DNA from: Haloferax elongans ATCC BAA-1513
GTDB lineage: Archaea > Halobacteriota > Halobacteria > Halobacteriales > Haloferacaceae
NCBI RefSeq assembly: GCF_000336755.1
Contig: NZ_AOLK01000011.1
Coordinates: 48,531-98,441 of the forward strand
Reading direction: 5' to 3'
Length of the DNA stretch: 49,911 nt
Shown here: in pieces, positions 25,698-35,310 of the stretch
How positions within the stretch are numbered: position 1 is the first letter of the stretch
Layout of the letters: each line of letters starts with the position of its first letter
Made by a program: the position numbers and the translations under genes
The notes under the pieces: model-generated
The model's input: only the letters and a program-made list of their open reading frames with translations
Told to the model about the DNA's origin: nothing
The model's database searches: none

Positions 25698-26582
25698 TCA
25701 GTTTTCCTGCCGGATGGCGTCCCAACCAGGCGTCTCGGGAGCACCGCGTGCGACTTCGACGTCCGCCGGGTCGGGTGCGTCGACCGCGTCCTCACCGAGC
25801 ACAGTTGCCGCCTCGACCCACGTCTCGAACGCGTCTCCGGCCCACGAGTCGGCTTCGAGTGTTCGTTCGCGGGCGTCGCGGGCGCGTTCGTCGTCGACTT
25901 CGGTCGAACCCGGGTGCGAGCCGACCGCGACGCCGACGAACTCGGCTCTGTCGGCCTCGGTCAGAGAGCGCGTTCGGAGTCGTTCGACCACGCCGTCCAG
26001 ACGTTCAGGCTCGGGGTGGACGAACAGTTTCGCCCCGAGCGCGTGGGGACCGAGCAGGAGGCCCTGGTGGTTCTCTGGCGGCGTGTCGTCGAGCAGGCGG
26101 TCGCCACCGTGGATTCGCTCGACGCGTTCGCACTCGGTCTCTTTGTCGAGCACGAGGTTGTGACCGGGGTACTCCGAACACTCGGCGGGGTACAGGTCCG
26201 ACTCGTGGATGCGACACTGGAGGGTATCGGGGTCGAGAAAGACACAGCTGCGCAGCCACGTCCGCTCGATACCGAACGGGGAGACGGGCTTCGGCGGCTT
26301 TCGCATTCCGACGAAGAACGCCGGTTTCCCGTGTATCGCAGCTACCTCGATGTCGTCGATTTCGACGCCCTCACCCGGCGCTGCTTCCCAGAGTCGCGGC
26401 GTCAACACGTCTCCGAGACCGGCGTCGACGAACTCGCGCACTTCGTCGCGCGTCAGGGGCACGAGATTGTAGGTGTCGTCGAGTGGTGCCCGCGGTCCGC
26501 GGCGCTCGTGGTCCAGCGTGACGGGCGAAACTGGTCGCCAGTCGATACAGCACCCAGCACAATCCTCACAATCGACACGCAT
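25698..26582 (-). CDS. YkgJ-family cysteine cluster protein
   Basis: A 294-residue soluble protein. The N-terminal signature DCEDCAGCCIDW has four cysteines; the second part, RSCVFLDPDTLQCRIHESD and YPAECSEYP, supplies three more. Members may bind zinc or an Fe-S cluster and act in metal handling or rRNA-related tasks, without proof. The C-terminal third (about 190-294) is an acidic extension not typical of the short bacterial proteins. The start at 26582 was chosen because it begins directly before the cysteine motif; the long frame to 26702 is atypical. Confidence 0.8.
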   Translation of the reverse strand: MRVDCEDCAGCCIDWRPVSPVTLDHERRGPRAPLDDTYNLVPLTRDEVREFVDAGLGDVLTPRLWEAAPGEGVEIDDIEVAAIHGKPAFFVGMRKPPKPVSPFGIERTWLRSCVFLDPDTLQCRIHESDLYPAECSEYPGHNLVLDKETECERVERIHGGDRLLDDTPPENHQGLLLGPHALGAKLFVHPEPERLDGVVERLRTRSLTEADRAEFVGVAVGSHPGSTEVDDERARDARERTLEADSWAGDAFETWVEAATVLGEDAVDAPDPADVEVARGAPETPGWDAIRQEN

Positions 26583-26658
26583 GCCATAGAAATTACACGT
26601 CGATGGACATGAACCCCTCGGCGGGGTGTTTTTCCCGCCGCGTCTCCTCTCCCGGTGT

Positions 26659-26862
26659 ATGGCTTCAGAACCGTGTGACGTCTGCGGGAAGCGCGTCCGC
26701 ATCGCCGGCGGTATCGGCGACCTGTGGAACTTTCCGACCTCCTCGTCGGGCGGGATGACGCTCGAACTCGTCGACGGGTCCGAGCACTTCCTCTGTTTCG
26801 AGTGTATGGAGCGCCTTCCGGGCGACCGCGAACCGACGGCCGAAGACGTGGCGGCGCTGTAA
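26659..26862 (+). CDS. DUF7561-like zinc-finger miniprotein
   Basis: A 67-residue protein with two CxxC pairs, CDVCGKRV and CFECMERL, which would bind one zinc. The intervening loop includes GGIGDLWNFPTSSSGG. Conserved in haloarchaea; function unknown. The gene ends 63 bases before the start of an XPD/DinG-type helicase on the same strand, hinting at a shared transcript, although that gene has its own TTTAG box. It is divergent from the YkgJ-type gene, with 76 bases between the start codons. Confidence 0.75.
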   Translation: MASEPCDVCGKRVRIAGGIGDLWNFPTSSSGGMTLELVDGSEHFLCFECMERLPGDREPTAEDVAAL

Positions 26863-26925
26863 CTGTCTTCCTGTCGAACCGTCGGGGAGCGGTGGATTTA
26901 GGCCCGCCCACCGACAGGAACCATC

Positions 26926-28833
26926 GTGGACCCGTCGCGTATCATCGACTCGTTTCCGGCTCCTGAGTATCGTGGGAATCAGGAGCGTGCACTGCGCGAC
27001 ATTCGAGACGCCTTCGCCGACGGCAACGACGTGGTGTTGGTTCGCGCGCCGACCGGGAGTGGCAAGTCGCTCCTCGCGCGTTCTATCGCGGGCGCGGCCC
27101 GGACCGTCGAGGAGGCGACGCCCGCGCAGGCGACAGACGCCTACTACACGACGCCGCAGGTGTCGCAACTCGACGACGTAGCCGAAGACGACCTGCTTTC
27201 TGACCTCAAGATAATCCGCGGGAAGTCGAACTACAACTGCATCATCCGCGGGGAGGAAGACACGCCGGTCGACCGCGCCCCCTGCGCCCGTGAGCGCGGA
27301 TTCGACTGTTCCATTCGGCATCGGTGTCCGTACTTTTCGGACCGCGCTATCGCCTCGAATCGCCAGATTGCGGCGATGACGCTCGCGTACTTCATGCAGA
27401 CCGCTGGGTCGGATGTGTTCCGAAAGCGCGACGTGGTCGTCATCGACGAGGCCCACGGGCTGGCCGAGTGGGCCGAGATGTACGCAACTATCGACCTGAA
27501 ACCTCGGACAGTCCCGATTTGGGACGATATCGGCGTTCCTGACCTCTCCGAGGCGGGCGACCCCGTCGAGCGGGCTGCACGATTCGCCGAAACTGTCGCT
27601 GGCGTCTGCGAGCGGGCGAAAGACGAGTTGCTGGCGAAGCCCGAGTTGACGCCCGAAGAGGCGGCCCGACGCGACCGCCTCCAGGAACTCCGCGGCGAAC
27701 TCAACTGGTTCGTCGAGGACTACCGCGACCCGCAGAGTCCGACGACGTGGGTCGTCGACCAGCACGACGGCGAGGGGTCGCCTATCGCCATCAAGCCGCT
27801 CGACCCGGCGAAGTACCTCAAACACACCGTCTGGGACCGCGGAAACAGGTTCGCGCTCCTGTCGGCGACCATCCTGAACAAGGCAGCGTTCTGTCGGTCG
27901 GTCGGCCTCGACCCCTCGAACGTCGCGCTCGTGGACGTGGGCCACACTTTCCCGGTCGAGAACCGACCCCTGTACAACGTCGCCCAGGGGAAGATGACCT
28001 ACGAACACCGCGACGAGACGCTCCCCAAAATCGCCCGCCTCATCGTTCGCCTGATGGCGAAACACCCCGACGAGAAGGGCCTGATTCACTGTCACTCGTA
28101 TGCGATTCAGGCCGAACTTCGCCGCCGACTCGCCGAGATGGGACTCGGCAATCGAATCCACGGTCACGACCGGGAGAACCGCAACGCCGAGTTAGAGACG
28201 TGGAAGGCGACCGACCGCCCCGAGGTGTTCCTCTCGGTCAAGATGGAGGAGGCACTGGACCTGAAAGGCGACCTCTGTCGGTGGCAGGTGCTCTGTAAAG
28301 CGCCGTATCTCAACACGAACGATTCGCGCGTCGCCCGCCGTCTCGAAGACGGTCAGTGGTCGTGGTACCGTCGCGCCGCGCTCCGAACCGTGATTCAGGC
28401 GTGCGGCCGGGTCGTTCGCGCCCCCGACGACTACGGCGACACCTACGTCGCCGACAGCAGTCTGTTGCAGTTGTTCGAAAAGACGCGCCACGACATGCCC
28501 GACTGGTTCGCCGAACAGGTCGACCGGATGTCGAAACCGGACCTCCCCGAGTTCGACCCCGTCGCTGCCGGGGGTCGGGGAAGTAATGCGACGCAGGGCC
28601 AGTCGGGATTCGGTGGCCAGTCGTCGGGGCAGTCGAGGGACGGGACTGGAACCGGGTCGAGCGCGACGAACTCGGCCAGTAGTCGGTCCTCGGATGGGCA
28701 GTCATCAGGTGGCCAATCTGGGAGCAGTGGTCGCTCTCGTGGCGGCTCTCGCGACGGTCGCAGTCGCTCGGAGTCGGATTCGAACGACGGTGGTCGCGGG
28801 GACCATCCGCTTTCTGACGTCTGGGGCGAGTGA
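26926..28833 (+). CDS. XPD/DinG-family iron-sulfur DNA helicase
   Basis: A 635-residue superfamily 2 helicase. Walker A VRAPTGSGKSLL (39-50), the Fe-S domain cysteines C105, C120, C128 and C134, and the DEAH box at 174-177 (VIDEAHG) are in the order of Rad3/XPD and DinG. Motif VI, VIQACGRVVRAPDDYG, is present. The cysteine spacing (x14, x7, x5) differs from Sulfolobus XPD. The last 90 residues are Ser/Gly/Gln/Arg-rich and predicted disordered. The start is GTG at 26926, supported by TTTAG 28 bases upstream. It probably works in nucleotide excision repair or replication restart. SufU/SufS genes lie 7-9 kb away and could supply the cluster. Confidence 0.88.
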   Translation: MDPSRIIDSFPAPEYRGNQERALRDIRDAFADGNDVVLVRAPTGSGKSLLARSIAGAARTVEEATPAQATDAYYTTPQVSQLDDVAEDDLLSDLKIIRGKSNYNCIIRGEEDTPVDRAPCARERGFDCSIRHRCPYFSDRAIASNRQIAAMTLAYFMQTAGSDVFRKRDVVVIDEAHGLAEWAEMYATIDLKPRTVPIWDDIGVPDLSEAGDPVERAARFAETVAGVCERAKDELLAKPELTPEEAARRDRLQELRGELNWFVEDYRDPQSPTTWVVDQHDGEGSPIAIKPLDPAKYLKHTVWDRGNRFALLSATILNKAAFCRSVGLDPSNVALVDVGHTFPVENRPLYNVAQGKMTYEHRDETLPKIARLIVRLMAKHPDEKGLIHCHSYAIQAELRRRLAEMGLGNRIHGHDRENRNAELETWKATDRPEVFLSVKMEEALDLKGDLCRWQVLCKAPYLNTNDSRVARRLEDGQWSWYRRAALRTVIQACGRVVRAPDDYGDTYVADSSLLQLFEKTRHDMPDWFAEQVDRMSKPDLPEFDPVAAGGRGSNATQGQSGFGGQSSGQSRDGTGTGSSATNSASSRSSDGQSSGGQSGSSGRSRGGSRDGRSRSESDSNDGGRGDHPLSDVWGE

Positions 28834-28920
28834 TTACAGCGCGAAGCTAACCGCGTAGAACAGCGACGACCCCAGCATCAGCGCGACGAGTGTCAGCGCG
28901 AGCAGTTGCTGTTTGTCCAT
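28834..28920 (-). CDS. 28-residue single-helix membrane microprotein
   Basis: ATG at 28918-28920 to TAA encodes MDKQQLLALTLVALMLGSS followed by LFYAVSFAL. The first five residues are polar and the rest forms one hydrophobic helix. The gene abuts the helicase stop codon, with no intervening base, and is convergent. The same pattern MDKQQLLAL-like followed by one helix is known from haloarchaeal small proteins. It could be a membrane regulator or a small subunit. It is too short for most ORF callers. Confidence 0.65.
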   Translation of the reverse strand: MDKQQLLALTLVALMLGSSLFYAVSFAL

Positions 28921-32548: not shown

Positions 32549-33430
32549 ATGGAATGGAAACCGGACTGGGGACTGCGTGGTCGCATGGCGTTCACGATGT
32601 TCCTCCTGTTCGCCCTCTACATCGTCTTCGCGGGGGTGCTGTTCGCCTACTTCCAGAACCTCGCTATCATGGTCGGGTTCATGGGCATCTTCCTCTTCGC
32701 CCAATTCTTCTTCAGCGACAAGCTCGCGCTCTACAGCATGGGTGCGACTGTCGTCGACGAGGACGACGGCCCGCAGGCGAAGAAACTCCACGCGATGGTC
32801 GGTCGCCTCTCCCAGCAGGCCGACCTCCCGAAGCCGAAGGTCGCCATCGCGGACACGTCTGTCCCGAACGCCTTCGCGACGGGTCGCTCCCAGAAGAACG
32901 CGGCCGTCTGCGTCACGACGGGGCTGATGCGCACCCTCGACGACGACGAGTTAGAAGGCGTCATCGCCCACGAACTCGCGCACGTGAAGAACCGCGACGT
33001 GATGGTCATGACCATCGCGTCGTTCCTCTCCAGCATCGCCTTCCTCATCGTCCGCTGGGGTTGGTTCTTCGGCGGCGACCGCGACCGACAGAACATGCCG
33101 GTCATCGTGGCTATCCTCGCCTCGCTCGTCGTCTGGATTATCTCGTATCTGCTCATCCGGGCGCTGTCGCGCTACCGCGAGTACGCTGCGGACCGCGGTG
33201 CAGCGGTCATCACCGGCCGCCCGTCTGCGCTCGCCTCCGCGCTGCTCAAGATTTCGGGTCGGATGGAGAACGTCCCGAAGCGCGACATGCGCGAGACTTC
33301 GGAGATGAACGCGTTCTTCATCATCCCCATCAAGTCGGACTTCATCGGCCGGCTGTTCAGCACTCACCCCTCGACCGAAAACCGCGTCGAGCGCCTCCGC
33401 GACATGGAGCGCGAGATGGAGACGTTCTGA
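32549..33430 (+). CDS. htpX: HtpX-type zinc metalloprotease (M48)
   Basis: A 293-residue membrane protease. Two N-terminal helices (about 13-55), then the M48 motif HELAHVKN with H141, E142 and H145, followed by two more helices and the downstream YREYAADRGAAVITG, which supplies the third zinc ligand. HtpX degrades misfolded membrane proteins. The next gene (PspAB) is 80 bases away on the same strand; such neighbours occur together in haloarchaea and suggest an envelope-stress unit. A TTTATTA box (32520-32526) precedes it. Confidence 0.92.
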   Translation: MEWKPDWGLRGRMAFTMFLLFALYIVFAGVLFAYFQNLAIMVGFMGIFLFAQFFFSDKLALYSMGATVVDEDDGPQAKKLHAMVGRLSQQADLPKPKVAIADTSVPNAFATGRSQKNAAVCVTTGLMRTLDDDELEGVIAHELAHVKNRDVMVMTIASFLSSIAFLIVRWGWFFGGDRDRQNMPVIVAILASLVVWIISYLLIRALSRYREYAADRGAAVITGRPSALASALLKISGRMENVPKRDMRETSEMNAFFIIPIKSDFIGRLFSTHPSTENRVERLRDMEREMETF

Positions 33431-34247: not shown

Positions 34248-34254
34248 GTTTATG
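34248..34254 (+). promoter_or_regulatory. Box A for radA
   Basis: GTTTATG ends 24 bases before the radA ATG at 34279. The in-frame upstream ATG at 34252 falls inside this box and is unlikely to be the start. Confidence 0.6.
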
Positions 34255-34278
34255 TGGGTATGGGCGGAACGAGTTGGT

Positions 34279-35310
34279 ATGGCAGAAGACGACCTCGAAA
34301 GTCTCCCCGGCGTCGGCCCGGCCACAGCCGACAAACTCGTCGAGAGCGGTTACGACAGCTATCAGTCTATCGCAGTCGCCAGCCCCGGCGAACTGTCCAA
34401 CAAGGCCGACATTGGCTCCAGCACGGCCTCGGACATCATCAACGCCGCCCGCGACGCCGCCGACGTCGGTGGCTTCGAGACCGGTTCGATGGTGCTCGAA
34501 CGACGCCAGCAAATCGGCAAGCTGAGCTGGCAAATCGACGAAGTGGACGAACTCCTCGGTGGCGGTCTCGAAACCCAGTCCATCACCGAAGTGTACGGTG
34601 AGTTCGGTGCCGGTAAGTCCCAGATTACGCACCAACTGGCCGTCAACGTCCAGCTTCCGCCCGAACAGGGCGGTCTCGGCGGCGGCTGTATCTTCATCGA
34701 CTCCGAAGACACGTTCCGCCCGGAGCGTATCGACGACATGGTCCGTGGCCTCGAAGACGACGTCCTCGAAGCGACGCTCGCCGACCGCGGCATCGAAGGC
34801 TCCGTCGACGACGAAGAGACGATGCAGGAACTCGTCGACGATGTCCTCGACAAGATTCACGTCGCCAAGGCGTTCAACTCCAATCACCAGATTCTCCTCG
34901 CCGAGAAGGCCAAGGAACTCGCTGGTGAGCACGAGGACACCGACTGGCCGGTTCGCCTCCTCTGTGTCGACTCGCTTACCGCTCACTTCCGCGCCGAGTA
35001 CGTCGGCCGCGGTGAACTCGCCGAGCGCCAGCAGAAGCTCAACAAGCACCTTCACGACCTGATGCGCATTGGCGACCTGTTCAACACGGGTATCCTCGTG
35101 ACGAACCAGGTTGCGTCGAACCCCGACTCCTACTTCGGCGACCCGACCCAGCCCATCGGTGGCAACATCCTGGGCCACACCTCGACGTTCCGTATCTACC
35201 TCCGCAAGTCCAAGGGTGACAAGCGTATCGTCCGCCTCGTGGACGCGCCGAACCTCGCCGACGGCGAGGCAGTCATGCGCGTGCAGGACGGCGGCCTGAA
35301 GCCGGAATAA
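34279..35310 (+). CDS. radA: DNA repair and recombination protein RadA
   Basis: A 343-residue archaeal RecA/Rad51-family recombinase that forms filaments on single-stranded DNA and drives strand exchange. The N-terminal helix-hairpin-helix [12 protein letters not shown] (about 9-20), the Walker A GEFGAGKS (107-114), Walker B LLCVDSLT and the L2-region [10 protein letters not shown] are canonical. Length 343 matches Haloferax RadA. The start at 34279 fits box A (34248-34254). No inteins. It is alone on its strand. Confidence 0.96.

Follow-up and report, generated by a model that had tools for sequence, protein, structure and literature searches.

Haloferax volcanii serves as a genetic model for how archaea replicate and recombine their DNA. 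As far as the sources were available to us, studies of mutants of this organism name two Rad3 helicases, Rad3a (HVO_1351) and Rad3b (HVO_0039), both of which have been knocked out (PMC11276520, PMC12873603). Loss of rad3b raised the G-quadruplex (G4) signal 1.5-fold and loss of rad3a did not (PMC12873603), and loss of rad3b caused no deficit in gene conversion, the opposite being the case for rad3a (PMC11276520). The portions of these two papers that we had at hand do not mention a third paralogue. Here, we describe a protein that, judged by its sequence, is such a third paralogue. It is encoded in a stretch of 49,911 nucleotides (nt) from Haloferax elongans ATCC BAA-1513 (contig NZ_AOLK01000011.1, positions 48,531 to 98,441 of the forward strand), referred to below as the window, where its gene lies downstream of a gene for a small zinc protein.

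The closest described relatives of the window helicase are the viral helicases of phrog_2488, such as gp73 of Bacillus phage G and the enzymes of Haloferacalesvirus HF1, HRTV-17 and the Ackermannviridae (e.g. Det7). They are like it in core profile, core size, compact cysteine spacing and predicted fold, but share just 22-29% identity with it, and the window helicase is chromosomal and carries a long tail with a terminal motif. Rad3a and Rad3b have in common with it the Helicase_C_2 superfamily, four cysteines by alignment and the same genome, whereas the identity is about 25-26% over about 200 residues of the C-terminal half, the cysteines are widely spaced and no such tail is present. DinG and YoaA are, like the window helicase, iron-sulfur (Fe-S) enzymes of superfamily 2, but the scores against them are far below the cut-offs. 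The small protein resembles the haloarchaeal C(P)XCG micro-proteins, which have fewer than 70 amino acids and two CxxC pairs, but its second pair is without the following glycine. Finally, the accessory helicases RTEL1 and Rrm3 reach the eukaryotic replisome via short linear motifs in disordered regions, as described in the part of PMC11405395 available to us; the likeness to the window helicase is an analogy of mechanism alone.

With slightly better than even confidence, we propose that the window encodes a near-universal chromosomal haloarchaeal helicase of the tailed-virus Fe-S type, which is equipped with a tether and a partner-docking terminal peptide, and that the zinc protein is separate from it. 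The window thus reveals a third helicase, which is near-universal, of viral type and furnished with a handle of nine conserved residues, and this makes the recruitment of archaeal accessory helicases directly testable. The interest of the locus is the helicase with its terminal motif rather than the pair of genes. The features of the two genes are as follows.

26659..26862, plus strand: DUF7561 protein (PF24442; Pfam E 2.5e-33), 67 amino acids, cysteines C6xxC9...C46xxC49
26926..28833, plus strand: Fe-S helicase, XPD/DinG-like, of the phrog_2488 type, 635 amino acids, GTG start
27238..27327, plus strand: Fe-S-type cysteines C105, C120, C128 and C134 (spacing x14, x7, x5)
28561..28803, plus strand: Ser/Gly/Arg-rich variable linker, residues 546-626, predicted to be disordered
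28804..28830, plus strand: C-terminal motif HPLSDVWGE, residues 627-635

The helicase is, by sequence, of the tailed-virus type

Pfam recognizes a Helicase_C_2 and a weak DEAD_2 domain in the window helicase, whose nearest named record is from H. larsenii (99% across the core). Among the PHROGs profiles, it matched phrog_2488 with an E-value of 5.9e-94 and 316.9 bits, residues 5-534 aligning with positions 9-578 of the 579 in the profile. The NCBIfam models for cellular enzymes gave 72.8 bits for rad3 (TIGR00604), below the cut-off of 246.95, and 45-46 bits for DinG and YoaA (45 for DinG, NF008729; cut-offs 598 and 680). When relatives were compared by BLASTP in a single set, phage G scored 202 bits, HRTV-17 190 and the archaeal row of family f18 170, followed by DinG with 62, Rad3b with 44 and Rad3a with 38. 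Phage records matching the helicase numbered 489, with sources as different as haloviruses, Bacillus phage G and the Ackermannviridae, and 420 of these covered at least 80% of the query; there were three matching plasmid records. The gene itself is not virus-encoded, as 276 of 282 haloarchaeal genomes carry it on the chromosome, usually as a single match, and no close relative was confirmed in viral contigs, in which few peptide patterns were searched. In a draw of 157 genomes from the phylum, 30 held a match, including seven outside the order at 27-33% identity.

A tree of 33 rows, several long branches of which were flagged by the program, placed the chromosomal proteins in a clade of 11 rows with support of 100/100. 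This clade groups with viral and mobile rows and with those of families f18 and f16 in a set of 29 rows (87/87, the branch not being starred), and Rad3a, Rad3b and DinG fall outside this set. Structural comparisons with Foldseek found viral models with E-values down to 9.4e-33 and template modelling (TM) scores of 0.71/0.84 for a phage protein annotated as 'DinG Rad3-related'; the best fold match in the PDB was DinG (6fws, E 2.2e-21, TM 0.57).

Could the window helicase nevertheless be an ordinary cellular XPD/Rad3 repair enzyme of the excision repair pathway? Its Helicase_C_2 and DEAD_2 domains would agree with this, its overall fold is of the XPD type, with XPD chains among the Foldseek matches (e.g. 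5h8w_A, TMq 0.56, E 2.3e-18), and the sole PDB sequence match at an E-value threshold of 0.001 is an XPD (2vl7, E 1.5e-5). However, the rad3 score lies far under its cut-off, the tree sets Rad3a and Rad3b apart from the window helicase, and the genome already has two other Helicase_C_2 proteins, which we read as Rad3a and Rad3b, so that we regard a role as an ordinary XPD as very unlikely. One of these two proteins (locus L150) is adjoined, as read by eye, by a divergent membrane-type open reading frame (ORF) and an ornithine-carbamoyltransferase-like ORF; from these neighbours, it fits Rad3b, with the membrane-type ORF as HVO_0040, given the arg neighbours that HVO_0039 presumably has in H. 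volcanii. The other (L151:2903-5257) lies 1.3 kb from a MutS gene and fits Rad3a, with MutS as HVO_1354, a gene that is listed in the gene table in the available part of PMC11276520. The window helicase is neither of the two but, by sequence, a third paralogue of the tailed-virus type rather than a member of the cellular XPD family.

The putative Fe-S ligands point in the same direction. Named loci are here the best 80 of 267 and include close relatives; together with the window they form the set of 81 chromosomal orthologues used below. C105, C120, C128 and C134 are invariant in 81/81 orthologues, and a recount on the window helicase confirmed the spacing x14, x7, x5 of the preliminary description. 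The latter had noted that this spacing differs from that of Sulfolobus XPD; we do not read it as an oddity of an XPD protein, because the phage-type family has the same compact spacing: it is common to most of the viral relatives, the row from an Acinetobacter phage being without two of the four cysteines. With the two Rad3 paralogues of the same genome as the reference, the alignment shows their cysteines to be far more widely spaced than those of the window helicase.

Relatives of the helicase were also seen in other settings. A second, tail-less copy in genome G005 (L170:1012-3003) lies by an integrase-like ORF, as read by eye, and is probably mobile. An XPD-like ORF (L169:1649-3907, minus strand) contains an apparent intein exactly at the Walker A lysine, and in the viruses Hardygib1 and HF1 a predicted hammerhead ribozyme is annotated just before the viral helicase gene (L176:2325-2390 and L177:2323-2390).

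The helicase tail ends in a conserved motif

The preliminary description had noted a Ser/Gly/Arg-rich tail beyond the XPD fold and had asked whether orthologues possess it. Both points hold: 90 residues follow residue 545 in the window helicase, with a predicted local distance difference test (pLDDT) score below 50 for residues 553-635 and of about 30 over the tail and motif in the AlphaFold model, and a tail is found in 81/81 orthologues and then in 20/20 rows from more families. Counted from 20 residues past a conserved WF to the end of the protein, the stretch comprises 37 to 99 residues in the 81 rows, with a median of 69, and without its last eight residues it consists of 25% S, 21% G and 14% R. 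The linker cannot be aligned in sequence and is variable in length across the 81 orthologues. The 20 further rows were drawn from families f1, f2, f3, f6, f7, f8 and f9 and read by eye; the five rows from f3 have a shorter tail, residue 544-545 being followed by 30 to 43 residues. Family f10 stands outside the tail rows, its loci L171 and L172 having no helicase match. A long tail appears to be a property of the chromosomal clade, as 58 to 110 residues follow W527 in its 11 rows, versus 6 to 29 in 18/18 others with Rad3a and Rad3b set aside. None of these 18 relatives outside the clade has a long tail, the viral and mobile rows having 6 to 26 residues.

At the very end of the tail, a narrow motif, [HS]P[LMIV][SAT]DVW[GDE], is found in 81/81 orthologues, with at most four residues following it; it is also present in 39/39 of loci L033-L062 and L154-L162, which overlap much with the 81-row set. 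As an invariant feature, however, this narrow form fails: it holds in the best 80 loci but not in 7/20 rows from the further families. We widened the consensus to [HSG]P[LMIV][SATN]D[VI]W[GDENS], since only 13/20 of these rows fit the narrow form, and the wider one is present in 20/20. Variants include PMADVWN or PVADVWN in 4/5 rows of f2, PLSDIWS in f8 and PLNDVWG in f9, and the P, D and W are unchanged in every row read. A motif coding pattern, P-[FLIMV]-[AST]-D-V-W, which leaves Ser codons of the AGY type outside, matched nothing in the genome besides the helicase itself, and we therefore discard the idea that the motif is a tag shared by several proteins. When the C-terminal pattern was relaxed, one more place (L203) came up, which was rejected as its frame looks antisense to another gene by eye.

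The earlier suggestion that the tail is an interaction region is retained in part: the tail is conserved and lies outside the fold, and the predicted interaction is now narrowed to the terminal peptide. This leaves the question of whether the low-complexity part of the tail might instead do the work, as a nucleic-acid-binding or condensate-forming region to which the terminal motif would be secondary. The linker consists to about 60% of S, G and R and is net positive in 64/81 orthologues although the core of the protein is acidic. Yet it lacks a net positive charge in the remaining 17/81, and its sequence and length vary freely while the terminal P, D and W stay constant in the rows read, and we consider such a function of the low-complexity part to be highly improbable as the main one.

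The motif could also act in cis, either by autoinhibition through the cluster-loaded Fe-S/Arch surface or as a C-terminal degradation signal. No more than four residues separate it from the C-terminus in 81/81 and 20/20 rows, which is compatible with this, and the Fe-S region with which it might interact is poorly modelled. On the other hand, the motif is not placed against the helicase core in the full-length AlphaFold model, the last blocks having a mean pLDDT of about 28-31, so that docking on its own protein is not predicted, and the widely varying length of the linker suits a tether as well or better. We therefore judge an action in cis to be unlikely, and prefer the docking of the terminal peptide on a partner protein.

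The zinc protein is a common but separable neighbour

The preliminary description placed a CxxC/CxxC protein of 67 residues 63 bases upstream of the helicase on the same strand. The coordinates agree, the intergenic gap being 63 nt (26863-26925), and the arrangement is not unique to this genome: the zinc protein is found upstream on the same strand in 66/80 named loci, at distances of 38 to 3753 nt. The 14 loci without it in the flank include Halorubrum, Halolamina, Halovivax and some Halobellus. DUF7561 was found in 278 of the 292 genomes examined from the class, and among the 282 haloarchaeal genomes scored for both genes, 265 have both, 11 the helicase only, four the zinc protein only and two neither; 2/4 of the genomes with the zinc protein only are assemblies of 94-95% completeness. 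Linkage was assessed in 81 genomes with places for both genes among the matches listed. In 47 of them the helicase follows the zinc protein on the same strand at a distance of up to 1 kb, in seven it lies at 1-6 kb, and the genes are unlinked in 27, which include 22/22 comparable genomes of genus g2; placement on another contig (16/81) could partly reflect assembly breaks. The following features at or near the zinc protein and the helicase start bear on how the pair is to be read.

25698..26582, minus strand: DUF7531 neighbour (PF24375), divergent, CxxCxxCC-like, member of the conserved block
26629..26633, plus strand: T-run, promoter-like, 30 nt upstream of the zinc-protein ATG; weak
26897..26902, plus strand: TTTAGG box, promoter-like, starting 29 nt upstream of the helicase GTG

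A TTTA, CTTA or TTTT sequence occurs 22-32 nt before the helicase start in 72/80 loci, compared with 10/80 for the neighbouring window at 32-42 nt and 0 to 2 for five further windows. The more specific TTTA[CG][GT] is present at this position in 50/80 loci and in 0/80 in six other windows. For the zinc protein, a T/A-rich box 22-32 nt upstream is found in 22/66 loci and in 0 to 9/66 in five other windows, a weak signal. The start codon of the helicase is GTG in 79/80 named loci, the exception, L084, reading one base off. The distance of this T-rich box from the start is that of leaderless promoters in haloarchaea, and for this reason the helicase probably has its own transcript. The promoter-like box weakens the idea of an operon.

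The conserved neighbourhood might indicate that the DUF7561 protein serves the helicase as its dedicated accessory subunit or as a regulator, the pair being a single functional unit. In addition to the 66/80 upstream positions and the close linkage in 47/81 genomes, which span several families, the invariant putative zinc ligands of the small protein speak for this, as does the fusion of a zinc ribbon to the helicase in 2/4 relatives from family f18. Several observations argue against it. The pair is not obligate, since some genomes hold just one of the genes (11/282 and 4/282), the genes are unlinked in 22/22 g2 genomes, and the helicase has a separate promoter-like box. In genomes G216 and G218 the zinc protein is located near DUF7531 and away from the helicase. 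Halovivax (L101) has no zinc-protein ORF between DUF7531 and the helicase but retains the tail motif, which rules out a motif specific to the zinc protein, and the homology of the f18 ribbon to the zinc protein is not established. Moreover, both genes belong to a larger conserved block, with DUF7531 upstream and divergent in 55/80 loci and NMD3 in 61/80, so that adjacency alone is weak evidence of joint function. We thus find a dedicated subunit rather unlikely, and the tight pair of the preliminary description does not stand: the zinc protein is a common but dispensable neighbour that is separable from the helicase. A conserved neighbour can accordingly resemble a partner and yet be separable.

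Other placements of the zinc protein and of zinc domains were also noted. In six g2 genomes that were inspected, the zinc protein has no DUF7531, NAD-binding gene, NMD3 or helicase closer than about 6 kb, and in three g7 genomes (L197, L198, L199), where it is unlinked from the helicase, it is located 52 to 306 nt from a Rad51/RadA-type gene. L163 and L164, from f18 genomes, encode distant helicase relatives with a fused N-terminal zinc ribbon of the RPB9 type (PF02150, E 1.5e-12 in L163; by eye in L164), and the ORFs of L165 and L166 have no ribbon.

The zinc protein itself scores 114.3 bits against DUF7561 (PF24442; gathering cut-off 27), and its four cysteines, G17, G18, W23, L45 and P54 are invariant in 88/88 distinct sequences. 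A structural model with a mean pLDDT of 73 has strands at 12-15, 32-36 and 42-46 and a helix at 47-52, in the order knuckle, hairpin and helix beginning at the second Cys pair, and we predict a treble-clef-like zinc finger. Structural matches, to ribosomal chains, were weak, the lowest Foldseek E being 0.36 and the highest Z 3.8, with one row labelled L24E, and we take these chains to be of the L24e type; no other fold was seen among the matches looked at, which excludes nothing.

Its first pair, CDVCG, fits C(P)XCG and the second, CFECM, is without the Gly. Synteny suggests HVO_0102 as the counterpart of the HtpX/M48 gene of the window (32549-33430) and HVO_0104 as that of the Rad51/RadA-type gene (34252-35310); the zinc protein is then probably HVO_0098, counted back by gene order rather than by sequence, with an accession five steps before that of HVO_0102, and the helicase is, likewise by synteny, probably HVO_0099 of H. 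volcanii. HVO_0098 bound one zinc per protein according to Table 3 in the available part of PMC11241148. The same table gives one zinc for HVO_1352, which, by gene order, fits a small zinc-type protein of Pfam DUF7576 that is encoded convergently beside Rad3a (L151:5285-5473, minus strand). The published C(P)XCG set may use a loose motif, because HVO_1352, if it is this DUF7576 protein, is also without the Gly. The literature searched contained no mention of DUF7561 or HVO_0099.

DUF7561 also scored above the cut-off in 2/14 control genomes, those of the bacterium Corynebacterium glutamicum and of Haloferax volcanii, and in genome G136 (L029:1501 onward) the DUF7561 protein is extended by apparent membrane-spanning segments.

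Proposed role of the helicase

We propose that the helicase in all likelihood translocates along single-stranded DNA in the 5' to 3' direction, as would be expected for a member of the XPD/DinG superfamily, and that it would act at replication or recombination intermediates. The Ser/Gly/Arg linker, which is mostly basic, could serve as a flexible tether, by which the conserved C-terminal peptide would dock the enzyme on one conserved partner. The DUF7561 protein would be a separate zinc protein of an old conserved gene block, which may help locally but would not be an obligate subunit.

Several points weigh against this proposal. The helicase activity is assumed by analogy from superfamily membership, and the docking partner of the motif is hypothetical. 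Nor is the motif absolute, as V is replaced by I in two f8 rows and the residues preceding P and D vary. Residues 101-138 are poorly modelled by AlphaFold without the Fe-S cluster, so that the motif might dock at this site. The adjacency of the zinc protein in 66/80 loci may reflect a functional link, and the ribbon on 2/4 f18 relatives hints at a recurring association of zinc domains with helicases. Lastly, the tree does not settle the branching order among the chromosomal clade, the phages and other archaea, and a viral origin is therefore not established.

One might nevertheless speculate, although we hold this to be doubtful, that an ancestor of the haloarchaea took over a viral replication helicase and that the acquisition of a disordered tether, with a new and lineage-specific docking peptide at its end, turned this enzyme into a housekeeping accessory helicase. 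If this were true, [HSG]P[LMIV][SATN]D[VI]W would define a motif for recruitment to a conserved archaeal hub, for instance MCM-GINS, RPA, RadA or PCNA.

A convergent microprotein downstream of the helicase

One further feature abuts the helicase gene.

28834..28920, minus strand: microprotein of 28 amino acids with a single hydrophobic segment, convergent, its stop abutting that of the helicase

The sequence of this membrane-type microprotein is MDKQQLLALTLVALMLGSSLFYAVSFAL, and no Pfam family was found above the cut-off. With a search pattern that was composed after the initial matches had been inspected, a similar ORF was found downstream of the helicase in 50/80 loci and in 0/480 controls. 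It is present in 12/14 of the loci without the zinc protein, and among its codons position 2 varies least.

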